A program made the position numbers and the translations under genes. Of a stretch of 64,000 nt of DNA, positions 5,886-62,590 are shown piece after piece (position 1 is the first letter of the stretch; every line of letters begins with the position of its first letter). Under the pieces are notes generated by a model. The model saw only the letters and a program-made list of their open reading frames with translations, made no database searches and was not told the DNA's origin. The DNA lies in contig OY540814.1 in NCBI GenBank assembly GCA_961205875.1, forward strand, positions 24,062,151-24,126,150. The letters run 5' to 3'. The DNA comes from Sialis fuliginosa (lineage: Eukaryota > Arthropoda > Insecta > Megaloptera > Sialidae).

Positions 5886-7039
<1,154 letters not shown>

Positions 7040-7796
7040 ATGCTTTCTTCGAAAGCAGGAAAAACAACGAAAGTTGTTGTATGTGGCATGAAAGGTGTTG
7101 GAAAAACATCAATGTTAGAGCAAGTTATTTACGGAAAAGTCGACGCGAAAACAGTAAGATATTTTACAATTTTTCAATTTCTGGGTGTAAGTCGCATTTT
7201 CTCTGTATAGGAATTCCCTCCAACTATTGAAGACACTTATGTAGCGAGTATAGAATCAGAACGTGGTACAAAAGAACGTATTCGTTTCTACGATACTGCT
7301 GGAATAAAACATACACCTACAAGCACTTCTAACGGGCCGATGAACCAACAATTGCCTAGACATTACCTCAATTTTGCAGATGGTTACCTTCTTGTGTATG
7401 ATACAGAAAAATCTGAATCCCTAGATGTTTTAGTGACACTGAAAAAGGATATCGATAAAAATAAAGAGAAAAAAGAAGTACGTTATATTTTGTTAACTTT
7501 TTAATTACGTATTATTTTTTGTATTTTTTTTGTAGGTAACTATAATCGTAGTTGGTAATCAGGTAAGTCCGCATAAAAAACCCAGCTCTCCTACACATTT
7601 AGAGACGACAGTAAGTAAAGCAAGTGTATGGTGTGCTCGCGAGAAAATCAGGCACTTTGTAGTGAACGCCATGCAGAGAAGTTCTCTGTATGAGACGTTC
7701 ATTCATCTAGCGAGTAGACTCAACCCTCCGCCCACTAAATCTACGTTTCCGCAGTTGACTATGGGAAGGAAACTGTCAAAAAATGATAGTAATTAG
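7040..7796 (+). CDS. kappaB-Ras: kappaB-Ras (NF-kappaB inhibitor-interacting Ras-like GTPase, NKIRAS)
   Basis: Complete three-exon gene: 7040-7153, 7211-7477 and 7536-7796, 213 residues. Vertebrate kappaB-Ras binds I-kappaB-beta and slows its degradation, and also restrains Ral signalling. The P-loop GMKGVGKT is at residues 16-23, the switch region 'TIEDTYVASIE' at 43-53, and DTAG at 66-69. An atypical insertion follows ('KHTPTSTSNGPMNQQLPRHY'), then 'DGYLLVYDTEKSESL'. The usual NKxD guanine-specificity motif is replaced by NQVS after 'IIVVG' (residues ~130-138). The tail 'SLYETFIHLASRLNPPPTKS' aligns with the kappaB-Ras family C terminus. There is no CaaX box, as expected for this family. 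Exon 3 contains an internal perfect donor-like CAG/GTAAGT at 7561-7568, but the frame continues through it into family-matching sequence. Confidence 0.93.
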
Positions 7797-10634
7797 AGAA
7801 AATAACTGAAATGAAAGCAATTTGCATATATCTTAAATTTAAAAAAATGTTTTTGTTAATCATAATGAAAATATTAATTACAAAGTAATTAATTGATTAA
7901 AGATAATTTAATTGACTGAAGATTTTATTGCTTTCATTATATATTTATATCTTATATCTATTTTTAATGTATCTGTTAGTTTTATTGCATTTATATATTT
8001 GTTACTTAACATAATATGTGATTAATATTCTTATTATATACTATTTATTTTATGTTATTAATTGATTTTTATTGTTAATATTTCAGTATTATTTTTTTTA
8101 TATATAAAAAATTAAGACTTATTCCATTTTATTAAAAGTTTACATCTTTTTTTACAAATATTTTAAAGCTAGCTTATTTCTTTATTCTGAAATAAGGTTA
8201 TATTAGAAGCCATCTTGGAAAATAGCGTCTATTTTTTTATGTACTCAGTTTTTATTTAAACATTCTAAAAGTTAATATGTTTGTTTTCATTCTTTTTGTT
8301 GATTTTTGTTACTTGATTTCTACTTCAACATTCTAAAAGTTAAGTTATGCATCAATCTTCGGAGTTAATTTTTGATACAGATATAAATAATTAATTAATA
8401 TTAGTTCAGACGCCATCTTAAAAAATGGCGGTCAATGCTTTTTGCATATTTTCAAAGTTTTCAACATAAAATGGTTACCTAAATTGTTTTTTAAGGTGAA
8501 TTTTGGGTATAGATAGATATAAAGAAGTTTAAAAAAATAGGATTATATCGCCATCTTGAAAAATGGCGGCCACCAGAATTTTTTATTGTTGCATATTTTA
8601 GTTAATTGGTGCTTTTTATTTTTGTATGGTAATACTTACTAACGATGTACTTATTCTTTAACTACCTGATATGTTATAAGTTAATATAAATATTTATTAT
8701 TATATACCAGTATTATTGTTTTGTTATAAGAATTAAATATTTAGATATATTTATATGTATCAATATGAATTAATAAAATATTATATTTTATAAGTATAAC
8801 TTCTTTAATTAAAAAAAAGAAATCCTTTCTTCCATACGCCCCTTGTTTTTAGGAAAGTCAAAATTGTTATAAATACGAGATTAGAGCTGGCAGTGAACGT
8901 GTTAATGATTGCTTTTTAATCTTTTTTGTTTGCATTCAATGGAATGAAACTTAGGAGTAAATATTTTACAAGACAAATAGCATTTTCGAAAATTCAGCCA
9001 CTAAAGAGCGGGAGGGGCAGGGGAGGATTGGTGTTAAATTTTTGATATATTTTCATGACCCCCCATTCATCATTATTTCCAATAATATGTATATGGTACT
9101 TTTTGCCGAGAATATCGGTTCTAGGTTTCGCGCGTGAATTTCTGTCTAGTAAAAATGAATTAAATAAGTATAGGATATATGAAGTAATTAATTTAAAAAA
9201 ATTGACCGACGTACCCCCCCCCCACTTTTTATTTTTATAAAATAAAAACTTTCAGATGACCTTCAGATTTTGGTCATGCGAAATATTTAGTTGTTCACAT
9301 ACATACAATAAGTATTTTGTTTCGTTGTCAATAAACCTTATGTACCTACCTAATTTATTTTATTCTAGCAAGTGATTCATAATTTTCGTTATTAATGAAT
9401 TCTATTAAACTGTAATTTGTGCGGATTTGTAAAACAATACACATAATTATAAGTGAAAACGCGGTGGAATAAAGCAATATCGAGCATCAGGTTAATGGGG
9501 ACGCATATAAATTTTTGAATAATCTAATAATTGATACTTTGTGTTCAGATGAAAAATGACAAAACTAATATAAAAAATTTTGCTGTTTTTCATGATTTTT
9601 TAAAATGAAATTCGTAAACATTTTGTACATAAAAATATTTTCTAATATTTTTTGTTTACTTTTTTTCTAATTTTTTGGTCACTCCAAAATGATGTCTAAA
9701 AAAGCGCCTGACGGTAGAGAGTCCTACTCCTCCAAAAAACCAAAAAAATTATTAAAAAACTAGAGGATTTTTTTCGGATGAAAATTAACAAAATGGTGAC
9801 CATTTTAAAATTAAGTGTCAAATTGGGCCTTTTTTCGATAGTTTTTTATCAAAAATATATGAAATTTTGAAATAAAAAAAAGCGGCCAATGGGTGTCAAA
9901 ATGATGTACATTTAAACAAATATTAATGTAACAGCTATTTATTAATTATATTATCATAGCATCTGCAACACATTGTTTCAAATTTTACTTATTTATTTTA
10001 TTACGTGTGTCGTAGTACTTATCATTTTGTTATCATTAACAAGTGCCCATTACTGGTTTAACTTTGTTGATTATTGGAGAAAAAACAGAAACAAAATAAA
10101 ATGCTATAATTTAAAAAACAAACTATATTTGCGGTAATTAAATTTATTTAATTAATAAGTAACATGAATTCATGAGAATTACAAAAAAGAAGCCCATTAA
10201 TCTAATTTAAAAAAAAAAAACAGAATTCCTTGCTCTAAAGCGTCCAAAACTGGTGCCAGTACCAATACCTTATATTTGTTACTAAATAATTTAAATGTGT
10301 GAGTAATATTTGTTTTTGTTTTCTTTCTTAATTTAACATATTTGTTACTATAATGCTAACGCTATCTACTAGGTATTAAATATAAATGACAACCACTGAC
10401 AGATGTAGCGAATGAAATCAAACATATAATGACTTTGACGCATGCGTAGTAAGTAGGAATCAGCGACTTAAAATAAGTGCTGCCAAGTGTACCTCATAAT
10501 TTACATTATTATACATTTATTACCACTGTTTTAAAATATCGAACAATTTCATAACAATTTGACACCTAGCAGATAGCGTTCGCTAAGCGCTAATTTGCAT
10601 TTGCAGCCAAGCAAATTCTTTATAGTACCGGGCA
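7797..10634. other. Intergenic AT-rich region downstream of kappaB-Ras
   Basis: 2.8 kb without a convincing gene. It holds degenerate repeats with YY1/Pho-like palindromes (8209-8569), a C-run near 9216-9225 and long A/T tracts. The 3' untranslated region of kappaB-Ras should lie at its left end. The promoter for XKR exon 1a, if it has one of its own, must lie at its right end or within the adjoining fold-back element. Confidence 0.6.
8209..8569. repeat. Three degenerate repeats carrying palindromic GCCAT..ATGGC sites
   Basis: The motif GCCATCTTG occurs at 8209. At 8412-8431 and 8550-8569 it is followed after a few A residues by AAATGGCGG, forming the inverted pair GCCATCTTGAAAAATGGCGG. AAnATGGCGGC is the classic YY1 recognition sequence, and GCCAT is the core of its insect homologue Pleiohomeotic. 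Surrounding sequence ('cattctaaaagttaa', 'ttgcatattttcaaag') also recurs, so this looks like a decayed tandem array. Regulatory function is not shown. Confidence 0.55.
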
Positions 10635-11099
10635 GCATATTTCCAAAAGCCCGTCCAGTACAGAGCAACGGATGAAAATTGTGCTCTGTAAAGCACTGGA
10701 GTTTGGAAATCGTTTCATTGATATTTGCACTCCAAACCCCAGTCGAGTACAGAGCATACTCAGACTAGAACTAGGTGTGGAATCTCGATGTGGGGCTTAT
10801 AAACTATAGTTTAAAAAATATGCGTTACTTATTATTATATCAAATTAAAACATTTTCGCGTCAGCGAAAATGTAGTATTCTTATATGCTATTTTATTATG
10901 TAATAAATTTTATGGTTGATACGGAGAATAGGGGTACAAGCTTTCACTACTGTCTAACATTAGCCTCAGTCTGAGTATGCTCTGTACTCGACTGGGGTTT
11001 GGAGTGCAAATATCAATGAAACGATTTCCAAACTCCAGTGCTTTACAGAGCACAATTTTCGTTCGTTGCTCTGTACTGGACGGGCTTTTGGAAATATGC
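10635..11099. mobile_element. Fold-back MITE with 9-bp target duplication, 42 bp upstream of XKR exon 1a
   Basis: A perfect 9-bp direct repeat TACCGGGCA (10626-10634 and 11100-11108) brackets an element with terminal inverted repeats of about 150 bp. The left begins GCATATTTCCAAAAGCCCG, and the right ends in its complement. Within the arms, 'gtccagtacagagcaacg', 'ctccaaaccccagtcgag' and 'tacagagcatactcagac' are mirrored on the other side. Long inverted ends with a 9-bp duplication are typical of Mutator-like elements. There is no coding sequence. The unique central part is about 150 bp. Confidence 0.85.
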
Positions 11100-11141
11100 T
11101 ACCGGGCATAAATGATTTAGTTCATTTTATAAATAAGAACA

Positions 11142-12595
11142 ATGGAACCAACTGATATATCTTTAGTATCTGAAATTAATCAAGAAATTACTAACGATGC
11201 AGAGTACAATGAAGACTTTGACATAATAGAACTTAAATTTAAAATTAAAAAGTATAATCCAAAACCAGAAACAGAGAATGATCAAAATACAATTGAACAT
11301 TCAAAAGGTCTTGTAGAAAGTGTTACAAAATATAAAGAAGAACATGAATTTGATACAAATATTGAATTAATAGAAATGGAATTAATAGAAACTGGATCAG
11401 GAGATCCACGATCTTCAAAGTTTGCTAATAATCTATATATTATTGAACTAATCGATTGTATAAAACATAAACTAATAAACGTAAACGAACAAGAAAAATA
11501 TTGTAATCAAGAAGACGTAAATATTTTAAAGATTGTATTCAAGAAATGTGAAGAAGAAATGGTAACTGAAATTACTTTTACATTAGCTGAACCTTTAATA
11601 TTAGATCTATTGTTTGAGACCAAAAATCCTTTGATTATTGAATATTTATTTGAACCTGAATATTCAGGCTACGCATCTCGCAGTTATTGTAAAGTTATAG
11701 AAACCAACCGAGACATTAATCTGGATTTCGATTATGCATCTTGTACAAATCTAAGTGAAGATATTGAAGAAAAAAATGAAGATTTGAACTGTAAATTTAC
11801 ATATATTAAATTAAAGAGTATACCTAATTTAAATGACGAACTAACCGGGTACATTTTTAAAGTAGTACAACCTGTAACATATGAGTTCAGGTATGAGACT
11901 CACAATCAGTTCAAGACTTTAATACTGAATTATATTTCCCGGCCAAAACAGTGGAAAATTCTTTGCCATATTTATAATAGAACAATTTTTGAAGAGAATA
12001 AAATTAATTGTGAAACTGAAAATGATTCAGATTTAGAAAATAATGAAGATTTCAAGATGGCGTCGGAAAATGGCGATGAGGAACCGGAACAAAAAACAAA
12101 CGAAAAAATCGATTCCGATTGTGAAATAAGTGAAATTGAGTTGATAAAAATCGATTCCTCGAAAGGGGATATGTCTGGTTACACATTCCAAATTTCCCCT
12201 CGTTTAAAATTTGAAGATATATTCTTACCCATGATCCCATTGGAAATTGAAAATGTTTTCAAGCCTGTTAAACCTGTGAAGATCTATTTTAAGTCTGAGC
12301 CAGAATTTTGGAGTGTAAGTGGGATTAGTTATGATCAGGTTATTGAAAATAATCGGGATACTAATTTGGAATTCGGTCCGACTTCTGCAAATTTGAATAG
12401 AAATGTTTCAGATTGGGATCGAATATTAAAAATTGTGACGCTGATGGTATCAGTTGTATTTTGTTTATTTGATGTTTACTCTGATATATTCCTAGGCTTC
12501 AAATATTTTATTGATGAACATATACTATACGGGGGCCTAACCTTTGTGTTTATTTTAATACCATCTTTTATCAACACGTATATATTTTACCGCAA
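11142..12595 (+). CDS. XKR alternative first exon 1a (818-residue isoform)
   Basis: An uninterrupted 485-codon frame that runs into a GTAAGT donor. When spliced to 19535-19824, 20161-20325 and 20834-21381 it gives an 818-residue protein in frame. The last ~60 codons (about 12418-12595) are the XK-family start: a hydrophobic helix, then 'FDVYSDIFLGFKYF', then a second helix ending 'FINTYIFYRK'. The first ~425 residues are an acidic, Glu/Asp/Asn/Ile-rich arm with no signal peptide and no domain I recognise. The arm is internally repetitive: 'KVIETNRDINLDFDYAS' (~residues 187-203) recurs as 'QVIENNRDTNLEFGPTS' (~399-415), and 'YIIELIDCIKHKLIN' (~104-118) matches motifs in exons 1b and 1c. XK topology would place the arm in the cytosol. 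It could instead be a stranded fragment of a tandem gene copy. The ATG is the first in the frame. Confidence 0.75.
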
Positions 12596-12650
12596 GTAAG
12601 TAAAATTGTAAACATTTTTTCGACATCTTCAGGAATATTCGCATTGATGA
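12596..12650 (+). promoter_or_regulatory. Conserved intronic block after exon 1a donor
   Basis: GTAAGTAAAATTGTAAA, a T-rich stretch, then ACATCTTCAGGAATATT and 'cgcattgat'. The same block follows the donors of exons 1b and 1c. Similarity ends abruptly after about 55 bases. It could be a leftover of the duplication or a splicing element. Confidence 0.55.
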
Positions 12651-13146
12651 AAAAAAAATTAGTGGACAGAAGCGGAGTATCCAGAGAGGAGAGACGGGGT
12701 ATACCCCTCCACTACAGTGGTGTTACTAGCGTGGAGGGGGTCTGCCCCCTTCCCCTGCATATCTGTAATGGTACCTTTTCTTGCAAATGCCCCCCTCTTT
12801 TTATGTTACTGTATTTATGGTTGAGGGGTGGATAATTTTATAATATCTCACTTTATTGCAAATAGGTTAGATATCTATTGGCGTTTTATTTATTACTCCT
12901 CGATTATCAGCTGCAAAAATATAAACTTTCAAAATGTACTCCCGAGGTAACCCCCTAATACCGCCGCGCGTCGGGGAAGTCGTTATTCTTCGTCAAAATT
13001 ATTTATTGTACAAATGATGTAAAAAGTAAAGAACATTGAATAATTTCATGAAAAAATGTTACTTATGTTAGCAAAACAAATATTTATCACACTATACTTT
13101 TTTTTTCGAAACGAACATTGTACACTAGTGATAGTGTACACTCAGT

Positions 13147-13345
13147 CAGGCGCGGATCTATGTTTACAATTTGGGGGGGGAGTCATGGTCTGAGAAAAGA
13201 CAATTTGAGGGGGGGGTCGTGGACTGTGATATGGACAAAAAAGTTATTTTAGTGTATTTAATAAGTATTTTTTATTTAATTTGTTTAATTTTCTGAGATT
13301 TGGGGGGGTCATGTCCCCCATGACCCTCCAATGAATACGCGCTTG
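13147..13345. mobile_element. Short hAT-like MITE with G-runs
   Basis: The ends are CAGGCGCGGATCT and, inverted, CAAGCGCGTATTC. It is flanked by near-identical 8-bp repeats CACTCAGT (13139-13146) and CACTTAGT (13346-13353). Inside are several runs of seven or more G on the plus strand, which could fold as G-quadruplexes. There is no coding sequence. Confidence 0.6.
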
Positions 13346-13353
13346 CACTTAGT

Positions 13354-14274
13354 ATAGCGTATAAGAAAGTCCCGTGGCACCCATGGCAGTTTTGTAATAA
13401 ACAAAAGGGTTACTTTTAATGTTTAAATTAACCGGTGAGCTATAGAAAAACTTATTATTTATTATCATTAAACGCATCGACTAGTATTAGAAAAAAGACA
13501 AGATTTTCAATAAAAATGTTTCTTACACGCATTGTCGAAAATATTGTGAGCTACTATTAATATAATATAATACTACTGTATTTTATGTGCGCATGCCAAC
13601 TTCTGAGCTTAGTGATCATACAATATTAAAGCGAAAATCGTTTAAAAAAAGTTCGTTTTTCATGTAATTTTATACAAAATATTGTAGGAGTGTACATCAT
13701 TGAGAATTCAATATTTGCAAATTATTAAAATGTAAGTATAGCTATGTTATCTATAATATGTAATAATTACCAATTCCATAGTTTATATTTTGTTCAGTTG
13801 AGGTTAAAATTAAAATTTATTTATAAAATGTCAAAGTTTCCAATATCGTACCTAAAAATAGGTCGGTCAAACATTCCTATGAATTTTTTTTTCTTATTGA
13901 ATAGAAAAGGTCATTCAAACTTACCAAAAAAAAATCAATCTTATGGGTGCTCGCTAACAATTCCATTCTGGGGACATGTGATTGGATGTGGAGGCAATGA
14001 GGAAATATAATATTCCCAAACCGGCATTCATTTTTGTATTAATTAATTTTAAATTTTAATAAGAATAAAAACTCAATATATTACATGAAAGCTATTTTTT
14101 CATCCATATTGTGTTTATAAGTATACGATTTATGGAACTACAGGCACGAATTAGAAAACTTGACTCCAAAATCTTACCTTTTACAAAAACGCTCATATTA
14201 TGTGTTTTTGATCAATTTATTACTTCTAAATAAATAATTTGTGCAAGTAAAGAATAAAACTACATACAATGTAA
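13354..14274 (+). other. Intron/intergenic stretch upstream of XKR exon 1b
   Basis: 'gtataagaaagtcccgtgg' near 13370 matches the 166-bp tandem repeat at 40659-40989, so a fragment of that family sits here. The remainder is AT-rich. An 88-codon frame at 13744-14010 starts MLSII like exon 1b but otherwise resembles nothing. No promoter is recognisable. Confidence 0.45.
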
Positions 14275-15315
14275 ATGTTGTCAATAATCTATAAAATTTA
14301 TTCCGCTAGAATGAAAAAACAAAAAAGTGATACGATATTAGCTACCCCTATGAGGGTACACGCAGGGGAATTTGTTTTAATGCAAATGTCACCCAAGGAC
14401 TACGAGAAAGATTTTAATATTATGGAAGTTACATTTAAGTTATTGAATACTAAATCATTAGTTGAAGAATGTACAAAAACAGATGAAGATCTAAATGAAA
14501 ATGGAAATGATGGTGACCTATGTATGTCCAATTACACTTCCAGCTGAATTTGGTAATTTAAAACTCGTGAATATGGCAGTCAAAATTGAATATTACGATA
14601 ATGCAACGTCTTTAGATTTCGATGAGTTTTATAGAAAGTTCAACATTATTAAACTTATCGACCTAATTAAACAACAAGTAATACATAATATAGAAAAAAA
14701 CCTTAATGACGATAATAAAAAGTATCAAAATATTACGATCAACAGTTTCACAGATGAATGTGAATATATTGAAGTTATTTTAGAATTTACAATGTATAGA
14801 AATGGACTTGATGATAAATTACATTCAATTTTTGATATAAAACTCTTTAATGTATCAATTATGACTGGATTAATTGAATTTCATCATTTTCCTCATAGTA
14901 CAAATTGCAACATCGTGGAACTTATAGATCTAATTAGACAAAAAGTAATACAGGGAACTGATAATCATAAAATTCCAATGACCTATTCGTACATTAAAAC
15001 TGAAAAACCCAAAAAGCCTGCCGGAGGATTTCAGTTTCAATCAGGTCAATTTAATGAAATAATTGAAAGAAATATTACTATTAATTGGGAATTCGAAAGT
15101 TTCAAACAGGTCAAAGATAAAAATATCCCAGAACAGGATCAGAGATTTAAGATTGTGATGTTAATGATAACAGTTGTATTTTGTTTATTTGATGTTTACT
15201 CTGATATATTCCTAGGCATCAAGTATTTTATTGATGAACAGATATTGTACGGAACCCTAACATTTGTGTTTATTTTCATACCTTCGATTGTGAACACGTA
15301 TGTATTTTATCGCAA
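14275..15315 (+). pseudogene. XKR alternative first exon 1b, frame broken by a 4-bp duplication
   Basis: Homologue of exons 1a and 1c. A first frame (14275-14547) matches the start of exon 1c ('ENGNDGDL' in both). It is thrown out of phase at 14519-14526, where TATG is present twice; exon 1c has a single related copy and stays open. The correct frame resumes and runs to the shared AA/GTAAGT donor at 15315 with 'ITLPAEFGNLKLVN', two module motifs ('FNIIKLIDLIKQQVI', 'CNIVELIDLIRQKVI'), 'EIIERNITINWEF' and the XK membrane segment. Translation could begin at an internal ATG (14495), giving 607 residues after splicing to the shared exons. The exon may therefore be a dead copy or a shortened working one. 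Everything after the duplication is open and well conserved, which favours very recent damage or use of the internal start. Confidence 0.65.
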
Positions 15316-15382
15316 GTAAGTAAAATTGTAAATTTTTTTTCAACATCTTCAGGAATATTTGCATTGATTATAAACTCATCAA
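15316..15382 (+). promoter_or_regulatory. Conserved intronic block after exon 1b donor
   Basis: GTAAGTAAAATTGTAAA, a T-rich stretch, ACATCTTCAGGAATATT, then 'gcattgattataaactcat'. It is shared with the block after exon 1c over about 65 bases and with that after exon 1a over about 55. Confidence 0.55.
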
Positions 15383-16322
15383 ATTAATAAAGGGATCAAT
15401 TACATTATCCATGTATATAAATAAATAAAAAATTATTTTAATGTTTCAAAGCTTTTCGCAAATTGAAATTTTATTTATTTTCCGCAAACAAAAAAAAATA
15501 TTTTTTTTTGCAAATTTAATAGGTTGCATGAAATTAAAAGATTTTTTTAGGCATTCTACAATAGCGTATAATTCAATTTTGTGAGTTTGTAAGGGGGGGG
15601 GGGGGGGAGGCAAAATCAATATAGCTCTCCTCATTGAAAATTAAAGACAAATTATATAATAAAATATTTGGGAGGCGTTATTTTATATTTGAATCGCTGA
15701 AAATGTGCCGCACCCAAAAACTGTCTCTCTAGGTCCGGGCCTTTTGGGAAATTCGGCCTTGGATATATAAACACGTGTACTTTGAACATATGTTTACATA
15801 TTATTATTTTATAAATAGTTTGCTGCATGCTCTTTTCGCACACTATTAAAATTACTCGATTACGTAGGGGTAATTTTAACGAAATTTTAGAGCCGCACAA
15901 TTTGATCAAAAAAGTTACATTATATACAAAAATTATTTTTTATTTAAAATTTAAATAAAAACTTCGTAAATATAAAAATAAACTTGCAATTGTAGTTGTG
16001 CGCACGCATCGGATACTTCTCAAAGTGAAACAGTGGTTACCATGGACTAAATCAGTGGCATGACGACTGGGGGGCTATTATCAGAATAAAATTTGGGAAC
16101 TATTTAAAAAAAATTAGTTTGTAAAAGAAGATCCAAATTTTATATTAAAAAGAAGTGTTAGGTTATGTTAACATAATAATGTGAGCTTTTTTTTCTAAAC
16201 ACATCTTTGGGGTCCCCTACGTCACCGGGGGCCCTAGGCAATTGCCTAAAGTGCTTACTGTGTGCCGCACCACTGGATATAGTTAATTGTTATATATTTT
16301 TATAATATGTATACCTAATGTA

Positions 16323-16843
16323 TGTACAATCGGCTCTCTTTTTACGCGGTAGATACGTTCCACAGCATCGTGTATAAAAATCGCTTAAAAAAAACATTGC
16401 TTACATTGTAAAATTAGGGATACGTTCCATATTTTTTTAAAACCGCGTTAAACCAAATCAGTCATTTAAAATTGGCCGAAAATCGCGTAAAAAAAAGTTT
16501 ATGAAATAAATAATGTCTAAAAAAATTAAAAAACACACAAAAAATTACATGTAATACATTAAATTAGTTTGTTTTTTAATTTTATTTATTTAGTCATTGA
16601 AAAGTAACAATATTTTTTTTATTTTTTTTCATCAGAATTATCGTCACTATCTGAAAAAAATTCGGCACCGTTTGTGAACTGATGTAAAATCTTGTTAAAC
16701 GAAGATTTTAATAATAACAAAATAATTATATATTTAAATTCCTTGAATTTCAGTTTCAATTGATACACGAAACGGGGAAACCTTAAATTTGCATGAAAAT
16801 CGCACCACATAACTTCTAATTCGCTTAAAAAGGGACTCTTCTG
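16323..16843. mobile_element. Possible pogo/Tigger-like remnant
   Basis: The left end TACAATCGGCTCTCTTTTTACGCG and the right end, read inverted, TACAGAAGAGTCCCTTTTTAAG are similar and sit on TA. Inside are phrases such as 'taaaaatcgcttaaaa' and 'aaaatcgcgtaaaaaa'. No intact transposase is present. A 63-codon minus-strand frame ending in an acidic Asp/Ser/Glu tail might be a transposase C terminus, but this is weak. Confidence 0.4.
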
Positions 16844-16899
16844 TATAAAAAATTTGAAAATTAGATTTGTTATTAATTACATTTTTACAAATACAGAGT

Positions 16900-17545
16900 G
16901 CGGCATTTAAATTGAGACAAGCAAATAACTTGAAAATAAAGGATTGTGTGGATAAAAGTTTGGTTCAATATCGTTTTAGTGCTCCAAATTAAGGTTGTAT
17001 AATTTAATATTAAGGATATTATTTAAAGGACAATGTTATTCTTTTTTTTATGGAAAGTTATTATATTTAACCAAATAAGAAAGATAGTGACTTTTGAACT
17101 TTTTACTTTTTTTGAATAAATTTGTAAGACAAAAAGTGCTTAAAAAATTCCTATAATTTGAAAAATTATTGTTTTATTTATTTTATTTAAATTTTATTTT
17201 GAAATATTTATCTATGATTCTTTGCATTAAATTACGCCCTTTTTTCTCTTCCAACTTTATTGAAAAATTGACATTTTACAGATTAAATGTTCAAACATCT
17301 CTATAGTTATTTAGCTAAATATAAAAAAAAAATGTATCATAAAAAAGGTTCCCTACATAAGATTTTGCAAGTAGAAGAAGAATAAAAAATATAGGTTTCC
17401 ATTAAAAAAAAAGTGTAGACCTTCAAATAACCTTGAAAACGTCAACAATCCTATTTCTCACTTGAAACCAAACAACATTTATTTTAAAAAAAATCATGGA
17501 GTCCCTTGATCTCAAGTTATTTGCCTTTCTCATTTTAAATGAGAT
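16900..17545. mobile_element. Degenerate palindromic MITE related to the 36696-37566 element
   Basis: Left arm 'catttaaattgagacaag', then 'caaataacttga'. The right arm, read inverted, shows 'catttaaaatgagaaagg', then 'caaataacttgag'. The phrase 'TTTAAATTGAGACAAG' is also the arm of the element at 36696-37566. It lies just upstream of XKR exon 1c. No coding sequence is visible. Confidence 0.5.
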
Positions 17546-17617
17546 ATTATTAAATTATTAATTTATATCACTTACAGTACAACTCATAAAAAGTAAATAC
17601 TATCAGTAAAATCTAAT

Positions 17618-20600
17618 ATGGACCTAAATATGAAGGAGCCAATACAGAGATTTTATTCCATAAGGACAAACATAGACTTCAAGAGAGATTATAATTATAT
17701 GAAAGTTAAATTACTGTTAAAGAATAAATCATCAGTTGAAGAATATACAAAAAAAGAAAATTATGAAAACGACAGTGTGCATTCAACAAAACTCACAGAA
17801 CATATTGAAATAGTAGATAATTGTTCAGAAACAGACGATATAAATAAAATTGACATAAATCAAGCTGATGAAAATGGCATTATAAATACTGGACATGGAT
17901 CAAACGTAGCAGAAAATGGAAATGATGGTGATCTATATCCGATTACATTTCCAGCAATATTTGATAATCTAAAACTTGTAAATATAGAAGTCAAAATTGT
18001 TTATTACGAAAATTCATTTTTAGATTTCGATGAGTTTTTTAGAAACTTCAACGTTATCGAACTTATTGGCCTAATTAAACAACAAGTAATTAATATAGAA
18101 ATAACCAGTAATAAAAATAATCAAAATATTAAGGCCTGTAAATACAATTGCATAGAAAAATCTGATATGATAGTTGAATTTGATTTAATATTGTATAGGC
18201 TAATAACTGATAAACACGTGGAAAATAATCAATCATTAGACAAAAATTCGAAATTGACAAACGAAGATCTAAATAAAACTAATATAAATCAAGATATTTC
18301 AAACGTAGCAGAAATCGAGTCGTTACAATATGAATTATTAAATAAATTAAAAGAAAACCCTAGAAATGGGCATGGTGACAACCTAAATTCAGTAAAAGTT
18401 CAATCAAAATTTGATATAGAACTCGCAGATATATTATTTACAACTAGATGTATAGATATGTACAATCATAATTTTCCTAATCGTAAAATTTGCAGCGTTC
18501 TGGAATTTGTCGATCTAATAGAAATGGCTATTTCTGATAACCAAGATGCAAATCATGAAATTCCAATTATCTTTTCGTACATTAGATCTAATATACCTTA
18601 CATAATGTGTGTAGCTCAATCGGGAATAGGTATTAACGAAATTATTGAAAAAAACCAAACCATCAATTCGGAATTCAATAATTATAAACAAGTTAAGGGT
18701 AAAAATATCCCAGAACATGATCGAATATTTAATATTGTGATGTTGATGGTATCAGTTGGATTTTGTATATTTGATGTTTACTCTGATATATTCCTAGGTA
18801 TCAAGTATTTTATTGATGAACATATTTTTTACGGGTGTCTGACTTTTGTGTTTATTTTCATACCATCGTTTATCAACACGTATATATTTTATCGCAAGTA
18901 AGTAGAATTGTAAAAAAATTTTCGACATCTTCAAGAATATTCGAATTGATTATAAACTCATCTTTATGAAGGATCAAAATATTGACAGACAAAATTACAA
19001 TATTCAAAGCTCTGTACACCGTGACAATTATATTCTGATACAAATGAAAACGCTAAAATATTAAATTTATAATAAAGTTTCAGTTAAGTTTTTATTTAAT
19101 TATTAAAGTAGACAAGATATTTTTCATCATTTGGAATTCGATACTAATTACGTTATAATGGATATTTCAGATCCTTCAACTTATAGAGATTCTACTGTAA
19201 TACAAAATACTAGATACTATATTTTTTTAAATACCGATTGCGATATGGAAACATGAACTATGAAACTGTTGTTTTTGGTTTGGTTTAAAAATGGCTCAAT
19301 TATTCAATACAAATATTCATGAAGACTCAAATACAATTTTAATTCAATGTTAGAAACCCCACAATTTTGTATAGTAATATTATACGCATCTACCGCATAA
19401 AAAAGAATAGATACTGTATTTTTATAAAGTATCGGGAATAAAAATTAGATTATCAAATTTTCATTTATCAATGTGAATATTTCTGAAGTTAAATTATGCA
19501 ATTTAATTAATAACCTTTTTAAATGTTATTTCAGCTATGGTAAATCTAAAAATAAAAGCAATTTGGAACATAAACTAGCACAAACAAAATGGCCGTTATT
19601 TTTCCTATTCTTCTTTCAAATTTCAACGTTTGTGGTAGCCGTCAAGAATCTATATTCTTTCCTTAGAAAGAGTGTCGACAGACAATCTTACGAGTTGAAA
19701 AACAATAACTTGCTACTAATGCAAATAAACGAATGTCTGTTGGAGGCAGCTCCGCAGCTAACTTTAAATATTGTGATTATAATTAGTTCTATTGGACAGG
19801 CAACACAAGATTCCAGTTTTTTAAGTAAGTTTATACACTACTTCGTAAAAAAACAATTGGAGATATTTTTACCCCCAAAAAAGTCACTGAAAGATTCGAG
19901 TTATTTTATACTAGTTTGAGAAATCGAAACACACATTGTTTTATGGTGTATATTTTTAGTTTAAAGTTAAAAATTATAAACCAACGTTTTGATTTTTAAT
20001 TGGTAGATAATTTATAATCTAAGGTTGTTATTCCCCTTTTTAGGAAAACAACTGATAACTTTAAGTAGTTTAATTTCTTCTCCAAATGTTAATTTTTCAT
20101 AAAAGTTAGAATTAAAGATACCAATTTTTATATTCAAGATGAACATTAATTTTCTTTTAGATATCCAACGTTGGATCACAATGGCTGTGTCTTTTGTAAT
20201 GATAGCAAAAATAGCTCACGCTTTTCAGCAAATCGATTGGACTTCAACCGACAATGAAAAACGTCCTGTAAATTTAAAACCAACAGAAAAAATATTTTTC
20301 TATTTTCAAATATTACTCCTTATTGGTACGTGTCACTCAATATATATTTAGAAAAAAATCTATTTCTGATTGTCCACCTTTAATTTATTTTAAATAAAAA
20401 AAAACATCATTTATATTATTGAAAAAATACCTACGTCATAGGGGTATTTATCCTTTAACATAATAATATTAGTTCAGTTTATTATCTAGATTAAATTTTC
20501 TATATTTTAATTTACAATCCAAATTGCGGTTTTAAACTAGTTAAATGCAAAATATTACCAAACTTTTTAAGGAGTATTTACTCCTTATTATTTAATTTCA

Positions 20601-21381
20601 CTATTTTCAGTTTAAAACAATACCAAAAATTCTTAAAGAAGTACATACATATATATATCTTGCAAAATATAATAAAATAAATTTGGAGGTAGTTACCCCT
20701 ACTGATAAATATTTTTTTATTTCTTTTTAGTTTTAATATATTAAATATAATATATATTATTAAATATTACAAAAAGTTATATAGGGGTACCTACCTCTTA
20801 TTAGATAATTATATTATTTTCCTTCTTTTTCAGTTTCAAGGATAATCATCATATCGATGTCATTCATATCTCTACCAATATTTGGATTAGTTAATATAAT
20901 TATTCATTGTATTGCTTTAATATTATACAACTTAATCATAGTCCATAAAAAAATGGCAAACGAGCTTGTTCCAATCCTTTTCGAAATTTACACGTTCGGT
21001 ATTTTGAATATTTACCACCTGTACACTGATTCATATCCGTTTCCTTTAAAAAAAGACACCAAATATGAATTTTTGTTTTATTATATTTTTTGTTTATTTG
21101 AAATTGTAATTGTTGTGATCATTTGGTTTTTCAAAATGGACGTTAGCATTTTAGGTAATGTTTTGTACTACGCTTTGCCATCTTTTGGTATGGCTATATT
21201 TGTTTTGAGTATAGTTTTTATGATAATTTGTAATGAGTATGCTAAAATCGATAAGTCTGAAGTGGGTGATAATATTAAGAAAGAAAATAACGACGAAACT
21301 AAGAAATTTATAATACCAGAGGCTGCAGGGACATCTAAGCAATCTAACGTATTGTTAGGTGATGTATTTCCAAGCACCTAG
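17618..21381 (+). CDS. XK-related (XKR family) membrane protein: first exon 1c plus shared exons 2-4
   Basis: Exons 17618-18897, 19535-19824, 20161-20325 and 20834-21381 join in phase to 760 residues. XK/XKR proteins are multi-pass membrane proteins. Several (XKR8, XKR4, XKR9, CED-8) scramble phospholipids during apoptosis, and XK works with VPS13A. Family marks are the 'FDVYSDIFLGIKYF' segment, 'LTFVFIFIPSFINTYIFY', and in shared exon 2 'INECLLEAAPQLTLNI', the counterpart of the family's FLExxPQLxLQ motif. Exon 3 starts 'IQRWITMAVSFVMIA'. Exon 4 carries four or five hydrophobic helices and a charged C-terminal tail. The core (~395 residues) equals a normal XKR; exon 1c adds ~365 residues ahead of it. 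That arm is acidic and modular ('FNVIELIGLIKQQVI', 'CSVLEFVDLIEMAIS', 'EIIEKNQTINSEF'), with no known domain. The shared exons can equally follow exon 1a or 1b. Scramblase activity is not proven here. Confidence 0.85.
18898..18964 (+). promoter_or_regulatory. Conserved intronic block after exon 1c donor
   Basis: GTAAGTAGAATTGTAAA, an A/T stretch, then ACATCTTCAAGAATATT and 'gaattgattataaactcat'. It is the third copy of the block following the exon 1a and 1b donors. Confidence 0.55.
20326..20833 (+). other. XKR intron 3 with several small hairpins
   Basis: This short intron contains AAGGAGTATTTACTCCTT (20569-20586), a perfect inverted repeat. It also has similar G-rich/C-rich hairpin words: 'aggggtatttatcct' near 20440, 'ggaggtagttacccct' near 20685 and 'aggggtacctacctct' near 20783. 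The meaning is unknown. Confidence 0.5.
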
Positions 21382-21575
21382 CGTAGTGGTATCTTGGTTT
21401 TTAATAATTTGACCTATTCATTAGTCATGACGAAAAAAATGGAATTATTTTATTTCCAAGAGGCTGTGATAAAATTTAAATATTTGCCCCTAACTTTTGG
21501 ACCACTAAATTTTTATTTTTTAACATAGGTAGGTACCTACAAATAAATTCATCTACTAGTTATATACTTGTATAT

Positions 21576-22582
21576 CAGTGGCGAATCGTCCATGGAAGCA
21601 GGGAAAGCAGTGCTTCCCTTACTTTATGGGTAAATTAATACAAATCTGTGTTTTCAGTTAATAAATAATTTAAAAATATTATTAGAATATTCGTCTTTAT
21701 GCGCAACTCAAACATTTTAATCAAAAATAGCATTTAATATTAATTTACACGCTCAGTTATAAAACTAGAATACCTCGATGTCTTATTTTCTTGTATTTTA
21801 GTCGATATTTGTATGACGAGTTGAAGTTCACTGAAGGAAATTTCACTAAAAAATTTCGAATTTTTGATTTCGTTAAAAGTATGTTTATTGTATAGAAAAT
21901 TACGTGAAAAGTTGTTTGTTTCAAACCGCAGGTCTGTATCTCAAACCGTTCTCGAGATATAGCCTCTCAAAGTTTTAGTTTTTTCAAATTTTTGGAGAAA
22001 AAATGCCATAACTTTTGAACGCGTGGTCGAAATTGATTTTAGTTGACGGATTTGAAATCCGCGTGTCAAAATTTATATAATGACATGTATAATACCTTAA
22101 AACTCGAAAAAAAAAATTTCGCGAAAAATCGAAAAAATTCAAAGGGGTATACCTTAAAAAAATGTCGATTTTTGGCCAAATTTTTTTTGTCGGATTTTAA
22201 AGTATTATACATGTCATTATATAGATTTTGACACGCTGATTCCAAATCCGTCAACTAAAATCAATTCCGACCACGCGTTCAAAAGTTATGGCATTTTTTC
22301 TCCAAAAATTTGAAAAAACTAAAACTTTGAGAGGCTATATCTCGAGAACGATTTGAGATACAGACCTGCGGTTTGAAACAAACAACTTTTCACGTAATTT
22401 TTTATACAATAAACATACTTTTAACGAAATCAAAAATTCGAAATTTGTTAGTGAAATTTCCTGCAGTGAACTTCAACTCGTCACAAATATCGACTAAAAT
22501 ACAAGAAAATAAGACGTAAAATCATTTAGTCACTATATAAATATTTATATAAAATTTTTATAAAAAGCTATCTACGCCACTG
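21576..22582. mobile_element. Large fold-back element, copy A (arms ~365 bp)
   Basis: The core 21780-22517 is one near-perfect palindrome centred near 22148. Phrases such as 'gccataacttttgaacgcg', 'tctcgagaacg' and 'cagacctgcggtttg' occur inverted on both sides. The outer limits CAGTGGCG (21576) and CGCCACTG (ending 22582) are inverted, but no clear target duplication is seen, and similarity to copy B continues a little left of 21576. The asymmetrical flank contains 'catggaagcaggg' and 'cttcccttactttatgggt'. Matching 62-codon frames on the two strands are by-products of the palindrome. Confidence 0.8.
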
Positions 22583-60682: not shown

Positions 60683-60937
60683 TTTCTATCTTTTTTTTGT
60701 TTATTTTCTTTTTCTATATTATAATTTATAATATAAACATCAACAGTAGCATAAATAGGGTTCACAATATGAGGGCTCCCAATTTGATCAAGTCACATTC
60801 TACAAGTGTAGGGGGAACTTTTGATTGGGTTGGTGAAAAAAACAGAAAATAAATTATGTAAGTACGCTACTAGATATTAAAAATAATTATTAGTTAATTC
60901 AAGCTGTAGAAACTTAGCGATTTTACTTTTTTAAATT

Positions 60938-61905
60938 CTTATATAAATATTTATATAGTGACTAAATGATTTTCTTGTATTTTAGTCGATATTTGTATGA
61001 CAAGTTGAAGTTCACTGCAGGAAATTTCACTAAAAAATTTCGAATTTTTGATTTAGTTAAAAGTATGTTTATTGTATAGAAAATGACGTGAAAAGTTGAA
61101 ATTTTCAAACCGCAGGTCTGTATCTCAAACCGTTCTCGAGATATAGCCTCTCAAAGTTTTAGTTTTTTCAAATTTTTGGAGAAAAAAGGCCATAACTTTT
61201 GAACGCGTGGTCGGAATTGATTTTAGTTGACGGATTTGAAATCAGCGTGTCAAAATCTATATAATGACATGTATAATACTTTGAAATTCGACAAAAAAAA
61301 TTTGGCCAAAAATCGACAATTTTTTAAGGTATACCCCTTTGAATTTTTTTCGATTTTTCGTGAAATTTTTTTTTCGAGTTTTAAGGTATTATACATGTCA
61401 TTATATAGATTTTGACACGCTGATTTCAAATCCGTCAACTAAAATCAATTCCGACCACGCGTTCAAAAGTTATGGCCTTTTTTCTCCAAAAATTTGAAAA
61501 AACTAAAACTTTGAGAGGCTATATCTCGAGAACGGTTTGAGATACAGACCTGCGGTTTGAAAATTTCAACTTTTCACGTCATTTTATATACAATACACAT
61601 ACTTTTAACGAAATCAAAATTTCGAAATTTTTTAGTGAAATTTCCTGCAGTGAACTTCAACTCTTCATACAAATATCGACTAAAATACAAGAAAATAAGA
61701 CGTAGAGGTATTATAGTTTTAAAACTGAGCGTGTAAATTAATATTAAATGCTATTTTTGATTAAAATGTTTGAGTTGCGCATAAAGACGAATATTCTAAT
61801 AATATTTTAAAATTATTTATTAACTGAAAACACAGATTTGTATTAATTTACCCATAAAGTAAGGGAAGCACTGCTTCCCCTGCTTCCATGGACGTTTCGC
61901 CACTG
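60938..61905. mobile_element. Large fold-back element, copy B (arms ~365 bp), inverted relative to copy A
   Basis: The palindromic core 60968-61697, centred near 61332, matches copy A at 21780-22517 closely. Its unique flank is on the right ('taagggaagcactgcttccc', 'catggacgttt', CGCCACTG ending 61905), whereas in copy A it is on the left, so the copies are inverted. The left end lacks the counterpart CAGTGGCG and may be truncated. Confidence 0.8.
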
Positions 61906-62590
61906 ATATAGAAGTATATAACTAGTAGATAGTTCATTTGTATGTTAAAAAATAAAAAAATACAAAATTCTGCAACCTAAAAATTACCCTCCCCCCCTCG
62001 GTCCGAGACTGCCCCGCCGGGGCATTTTAGAAATCTGGCAACTAAATTCGTGTAGTATTATAAATTCTTTTGATCAACTTATAATTTTCGTAGACTCATG
62101 GGGAGGATTGATCCCCCCCCCCCCCCCTATCTACGCCACTGGATTATATAGATTTAATTTTTTCGTAGGAAATCAATATTATTAAACAAGGAGAGATACA
62201 TAGAACGTTTACAGAATTATATGTTTCCTTCTCTATTTTAAAAACTTTTGACTTAATTACACATCTTGAAGAAGTTCTCATACTTATGCATTTTTAAAGA
62301 TAAATTAATTATTATGATATTGATTTATTTCTTTTTTAGTTGACACATTGTAGACTGCAAAGCAGTTGTGACAGTATATATTATATTTTATTGTACGTAC
62401 TTTAATAAAAATAAGTTTATTTAACAATTAAATGTCGGAATTAATGTGGTATGTATTTTATTTAAAATTGTATTTATTTGAGGAGAAGGGGGGTAATTTA
62501 TAAAGAGTAGGCGTTAAACTTAATTTCATAACCCCTATTTATTTTTTAAAAATATGATAAAAAATAAATTAATATAGCATCCAAATTCAT

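Follow-up and report, generated by a model that had tools for sequence, protein, structure and literature searches.

Tandem candidate first exons and a putative shared docking site in an XK-family gene of Sialis fuliginosa

Genes that line up alternative 5' units in tandem ahead of one constant set of exons are known from the clustered protocadherins of vertebrates and from sDscam of chelicerates, in which the units give different N-terminal parts on one membrane part (from the sections of PMC4835542 on which we draw). How a transcript skips the nearer donors and joins the constant exon had not been settled for either group in 2016, and the same sections argue that a cap-proximal rule is not strict for tandem 5' arrays. 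Docking/selector elements have been described where mutually exclusive exons are internal, as in 14-3-3zeta, Mhc and MRP1, where several selectors beside variable exons compete for one docker near a constant exon, and the pages of PMC6071210 cited here propose that such elements originate by the copying of one stem arm. Here we analyse a 64,000-nucleotide stretch of Sialis fuliginosa DNA (GCA_961205875.1, contig OY540814.1; C6:24062151-24126150 in our numbering; hereafter the window, in whose positions features are given) within a genome of 392 Mb in 20 contigs. The window contains what is probably a single gene of the XK family, with alternative first exons (1a, 1b and 1c) in tandem and one shared core, in which selector-docking pairing would guide the joins.

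The locus resembles both of these known forms, the second of which is known from internal exons of insects; here the pairing lies on apparent first exons. Like sDscam cassettes and protocadherins, it has tandem variable units and one constant exon set; unlike them, it belongs to the XK family rather than to adhesion proteins, has one exon per unit, and carries a donor-acceptor pairing element, for which the cited sections of PMC4835542 give no counterpart in sDscam. The variable exons of 14-3-3zeta, Mhc and MRP1 are internal and lie behind a constant exon (PMC6071210, as excerpted), whereas those described here are apparent first exons, and one of the three selectors is degenerate, selector quality falling toward the acceptor. 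Our searches of the open-access literature turned up neither an XK-family gene described as having alternative first exons nor tandem 5' units together with docking/selector elements, nor either of these in an XK gene.

All exons of the gene lie on the plus strand. Exon 1a (11142-12595) encodes a 425-residue acidic arm and XK helices 1-2 in 484 intact whole codons, exon 1c (17618-18897) encodes a 367-residue arm and XK helices 1-2 in 426 intact whole codons, and the part of exon 1b that is open to its donor (14495-15315) has 273 whole codons with a 214-residue arm. The longest open runs are 488, 274 and 434 codons for 1a, 1b and 1c, whereas 300 shuffles of a 16-kb sequence gave a mean of 87 and a maximum of 146 codons on the plus strand. 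Each of the three ends in the same AA|GTAAGT donor in phase 2 (GTAAGT at 12596-12601, 15316-15321 and 18898-18903), and a single acceptor precedes shared exon 2 (19535-19824), which is followed by shared exon 3 (20161-20325) and shared exon 4 with the stop (20834-21381). Translated together with the core, 1a gives 818 residues and 1c gives 760, both in frame and without internal stops. The ends of 1a, 1b and 1c match the Pfam XK-related family PF09815 with E-values of 1.8e-6, 7.7e-6 and 8e-6 (27.6, 25.5 and 25.5 bits) and the joined core matches it with 80.6 bits, all above the curated cut-off of 24.8; exon 3 alone has no Pfam match and is assigned to XK from where it lies in the joined core. 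In their last 60 codons, the XK segments of 1b and 1c are 78% and 85% identical, respectively, to that of 1a. A spliced query of 655 nucleotides, which took from exon 4 only the first 100 bases, was searched against the whole genome and returned seven matches: exons 2, 3 and 4 once each and the three first-exon ends, all at this locus, and a distant match of 79 bases on C1. The same search found no processed retrocopies carrying a first-exon/core junction. A preliminary description of this DNA had reported the shared two-helix segment, the common donor and phase, the single set of downstream exons and the XK assignment, and on each of these points our results agree with it.

The best evidence in the sequence for splicing of donors 1a and 1b to 19535 is the RNA complementarity between the bases that follow these donors and a single site beside the shared acceptor. 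Candidate selectors, all on the plus strand, follow the three donors (12602-12658, 15322-15369 and, in degenerate form, 18904-18951), and the putative docking site (19457-19505, plus strand) ends 30 bases before the shared exon. The core of selector 1a (12627-12651) pairs with 19464-19488 over 25 uninterrupted pairs, three of them G-U, and that of selector 1b (15347-15368) with 19467-19488 over 22 uninterrupted pairs, again with three G-U; selector 1c can be placed in this register with two mismatches. Complementarity of several selectors to one site is thus found for 1a and 1b, and for 1c only with those mismatches. The 57 bases that follow the donor differ between copies at 6, 8 and 9 positions, and the next 64 bases at 45, 39 and 39 (ungapped). 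The stretch from 12596 to 19534 contains 19 uninterrupted helices of at least 16 pairs, of which 10 survive a low-complexity filter; among the filtered helices, 1a ranks first and 1b second, with 22 and 19 Watson-Crick pairs, and the third has 13. Duplex energies to the docking site are -37.2 (1a), -32.3 (1b) and -21.6 kcal/mol (1c), of 541 windows those at the docking site pair best with both the 1a and the 1b flank, and no dinucleotide shuffle in 2000, whichever strand was shuffled, reached the observed energy for 1a or 1b (14 and 11 of 2000 for 1c). Genome-wide, at up to three mismatches, the selector 25-mer occurs three times, after the three donors, and the docking 27-mer occurs once; control sequences read backwards had no occurrences in this search. 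At the 22 shared core positions, 1a and 1b differ once, in a way that keeps the pair, compared with approximately 12.5 of 38 synonymous sites (Fisher 0.02), and the whole 57-base flank compared with synonymous sites gives Fisher 0.015 for this pair of copies, in tests that were chosen after the data were seen.

For comparison we scored 20 first introns of other XK genes (17 plus 3), with exon-2 starts placed by homology. These come from the part of the family that was examined, namely 20 fetched stretches and four later ones (L numbers), and leave out L009 and L029, which belong to an array on C13, L021, L022, which lacks a first exon at threshold, one intron of insufficient length for scoring and one first exon without an exon 2 in the fetched DNA. 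In 19 of the 20, the longest helix between flank and acceptor has at most 11 Watson-Crick pairs, the exception being L017, where a dispersed repeat forms a perfect helix of 27 pairs (L017:4748-4798 and 6908-6959) that might act on splicing by accident. None of the control loci has a second first exon between its first exon and exon 2.

Folding predictions suggest that the distal donors 1a and 1b can be clamped to the acceptor and that the near donor 1c, 637 bases away, is not. With each flank folded alone with the docking region, the mean probability of the core helix is 0.98 for 1a, 0.98 for 1b and 0.84 for 1c. When all three flanks compete in silico, the mean probabilities become 0.98, 0.0001 and 0.0000, and without 1a they are 0.98 for 1b and 0.0000 for 1c; the selectors use the same docking bases, and the predicted pairings accordingly form one at a time. 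The minimum-energy fold of the contiguous 6.99 kb from 1a includes all 22 core pairs of 1a and no core pair of the other two flanks, the fold of the contiguous 4.27 kb from 1b includes all 22 core pairs of 1b, and in the contiguous 1c intron the core helix has a mean probability of 0.002.

We propose that each first exon would contribute a different N-terminal arm together with membrane helices 1-2, and the shared exons the rest of the protein. Transcription would start at one of the first exons, from putative promoters of their own. In a transcript started at 1a, the selector behind the donor would fold onto the docking site in the cell, looping out 6.9 kb that include donors 1b and 1c and bringing donor 1a to the shared acceptor; a transcript started at 1b would use the same clamp across 4.2 kb, and 1c, at its short distance from the shared exon, would need no clamp, which would have allowed its selector to decay. 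As pairing strength falls with nearness to the acceptor, the most upstream exon present should win the choice of donor. Such an array would probably have arisen by duplication of a first exon together with one side of an intron stem whose other side remained single-copy. The more specific idea that selectors graded with distance encode here a rule by which the constant exon is joined to whichever first exon lies closest to the cap, in an XK scramblase with interchangeable arms, has in our judgement an even chance of being right. If it is, it would offer a testable way in which a cell chooses between versions of one protein, and because the locus is small (two or three exons in 8 kb, with a defined helix of 22-25 pairs), a cis-acting answer could be tested in a minigene. 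A scan for sigma-70 bacterial consensus promoters was discarded as having no bearing on an animal gene.

Several observations weigh against this proposal, the first group of which concerns the pairing. The similarity between 1b and 1c continues for approximately 25 bases past the selector, to 15399 and 18977 (blastn), and part of the likeness of the flanks is therefore plain duplication; the comparison of flank with synonymous sites is non-significant where it involves 1c (Fisher 0.18 and 0.20); and the 1c flank prefers exon 2 (-23.3 kcal/mol) over the docking site. Ranked on raw energy among 57,630 window pairs, the 1a pairing comes no higher than 26th. Most of the 25 pairs ahead of it touch stretches judged G/C-rich by eye (12656-12980, 13136-13340, 15556-15620 and 16016-16220), and one is another inverted pair (16896:17496); because such stretches dominate the ranking by raw energy, uninterrupted helix length was used instead. 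Even by that measure, random sampling of 20,000 region pairs from the window gave 2 with at least 19 Watson-Crick pairs (reaching 22), both in inverted repeats. Energy alone is weak evidence, since the intron of L014 has a raw energy of -40.8 (z-score -3.3), lower than that of 1a, with a longest helix of 11 pairs, and intron 2 of the array gene itself reaches a z-score of -3.6. The outer helix drawn by the duplex program, eight pairs starting at the eighth intron base, is likely only for 1b (0.87) and improbable for 1a (0.13) and 1c (0.30). Finally, the supposed ancestral stem was found in none of the scored introns of single-exon paralogs.

The second group concerns the exons themselves and whether 1a and 1b are alive. 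The preliminary description had taken 14275-15315 as one continuous exon 1b, with all three exons joining 19535 in frame and arms of 250-430 residues. These statements hold for 1a and 1c; in 1b, translation from ATG 14275 would meet a stop at 14547, and the donor is reached in a different frame that opens at ATG 14495 and has an arm of 214 residues. The 5' part of 1b (14275-14547, plus strand, 90 amino acids in the other frame) is cut off by a four-base tandem duplication, seen by eye as a doubled TATG unit near 14525, such that 1b is frameshifted relative to 1c. Exon 1b is therefore either a 274-residue first-exon product started at the inner ATG or a copy in decay. Upstream of 1a, a palindromic dispersed element of 479 bases (10628-11106, no strand assigned), which resembles a miniature inverted-repeat transposable element (MITE), ends 35 bases before the ATG; among the 40 of 194 candidates that were scored, 31 other places match it over at least 460 bases at 98-100%, and a nine-base target duplication is visible by eye. 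Such high identity suggests that the leader or promoter of 1a was recently disturbed, or else lies beyond the element. The damage to 1b and the transposon beside the 1a ATG speak against the present use of all three exons. The claim that these are alternative exons is partly supported: the array is real except for the single 1b frame, and alternative first exons with one core are the best reading, which has gained strength through the pairing of both the 1a and the 1b intron flank with a single site beside the shared acceptor, with the 1b frame and the transposon near 1a counting on the other side.

These same observations lend themselves to the view that 1a and 1b are dead or dying copies of a first exon, that only 1c codes, and that the pairing is the remnant of an old intron stem. 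In favor of this, 1b carries its frameshift, the MITE-like element sits beside the 1a ATG, 1c alone is close to the acceptor, and Ivanov and Pervouchine, in the portion of PMC6071210 cited here, propose that competing arms arise by duplication as such. The frames tell against it. The ratio of nonsynonymous to synonymous substitution rates (dN/dS) over the last 60 codons is 0.26 (1a-1c), 0.37 (1b-1c) and 0.30 (1a-1b), and for the arms, among which 1a aligned poorly, it is 0.37-0.54. Taken one at a time, the branch tests against neutrality are weak, with twice the log-likelihood difference at 3.5 (1a), 2.9 (1b) and 1.5 (1c), which is a further point against our proposal; 1a and 1b jointly give 6.7. 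In neutral simulations (substitution only, 1500 runs per setting), no run kept 1a or 1b open at the branch lengths estimated from the XK segment; over the range of settings, 1a stayed open in 34 runs at 0.05 changes per site, in 2 at 0.10 and in none at 0.15 and 0.219, and 1b in 171 runs at 0.05, in 17 at 0.10 and in none at 0.15 or 0.254. Since neutral runs so rarely stay open, both frames were probably kept by selection over most of their history, and for 1a, open over all its 484 whole codons, only a recent death is likely; a recent death of 1a or 1b is possible with open frames such as these. The selectors likewise show the reverse of decay in dead copies, for the distal ones are unbroken and that of 1c, the exon supposed to be alive, has two mismatches. 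On balance we consider it unlikely that 1a and 1b are mere relics.

A different arrangement would have the three as internal mutually exclusive exons behind a shared leader that escaped our view. This shares the pairing mechanism with the alternative-first-exon proposal, such that the odds of the two overlap, and as an account of exon position we regard it as rather improbable. In 14-3-3zeta, Mhc and MRP1, too, the docking site is placed in the right-hand intron (PMC6071210, in the section cited), and acceptor-like AG sites, judged by eye, precede each ATG; against this, each exon has its own ATG codons, and upstream of the exons the copies show no homology by blastn.

It is very doubtful that 1a and 1b are separate short genes, each an arm with two membrane helices that is polyadenylated in the intron. 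The unspliced frame does stop within the donor (AAG TAA), and AATAAA or ATTAAA follows the exons (9, 21 and 4 occurrences), as is expected in such AT-rich DNA; the conserved flank beyond that stop, paired near the acceptor, would be left unexplained. Nor is it at all probable that the pairing arms derive from the termini of an old intronic transposon insertion rather than from a splicing element, for which the repeat-derived helix of L017 in another XK gene sets a precedent, given that neither selector nor docking site has other copies in the 392 Mb at up to three mismatches (the reach of the search, more diverged copies lying outside its range) and that the dispersed repeat of about 100 bases in intron 1c (19015-19114, plus strand; 40 of 348 candidates scored) sits apart from both arms.

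If the gene has alternative first exons as we propose, it would encode an XK membrane core carrying one of several arms, each arm supplied together with helices 1-2. All of 1a, 1b and 1c keep the DxxxD motif of helix 1, which is invariant in 16 aligned sequences, these three included. In Xkr8, which has eight membrane helices and a cytoplasmic helix near its C-terminus, D26 and D30 are needed for scrambling (PMC8500837, in the sections cited), and the DxxxD of the array gene has the same spacing, a correspondence by spacing and unaligned. PF09815 covers helices 1-2 and the core as in Xkr8-type scramblases; unlike these, the array gene has N-terminal arms of 214-425 residues and three versions of helices 1-2. 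Provided that the Xkr8 topology applies, the arms would lie on the cytosolic side. A sequence comparison with solved structures gave no match for the array protein at E 1 or better. Repeated units may be present in the arms: within the 1b arm, 14632-14685 and 14899-14952 are 80% alike over 54 bases, and this repeat carries an 'ELIDLI'-like motif with kin, by eye, in 1a and 1c.

XK-related genes have multiplied in this genome, where 71 exon-level profile matches over the cut-off were listed, and several XK first exons hold single-exon N-terminal arms of up to about 500 codons with a phase-2 donor after helix 2. L014 (C2:37.32 Mb) resembles the array gene in its exon plan, its phase-2 donor and the long arm in its first exon (501 codons from the first ATG), and its helix-1/2 segment is the closest of those aligned (50%); unlike the array gene, it has one first exon, and its longest helix between flank and acceptor has 11 pairs. 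A 30% match between 1c and L014 extends into the arm (query 143-427, E 2e-7), with a score no better than that of XK-only matches, and homology of the arms is therefore not established. Six copies of XK helices 1-2 at C13:224 kb were considered as a bigger first-exon array and rejected as a tandem repeat with pairs 88-98% alike; visual inspection showed no donor, and neither exon 2 nor exon 4 turned up in the 17 kb that were read. This C13 array (L009:4471-6639, minus strand), with its six copies 339-464 bases apart, appears to be an exon fragment caught in a tandem repeat. A cluster at C4:16.31-16.34 Mb was likewise set aside as a parallel, its four tandem units having an exon 2 in each and no shared core.

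Elsewhere in the window, a frame at 5886-6768 (minus strand) resembles what we take to be a dolichol-phosphate mannosyltransferase, and one at 7211-7796 (plus strand) presumably encodes an NKIRAS-type GTPase. A long inverted-repeat element is present in two copies that are 93% alike, at 21510-22564, directly after the XK gene, and at 60927-61958, and a third copy lies at L018:8007-8989.

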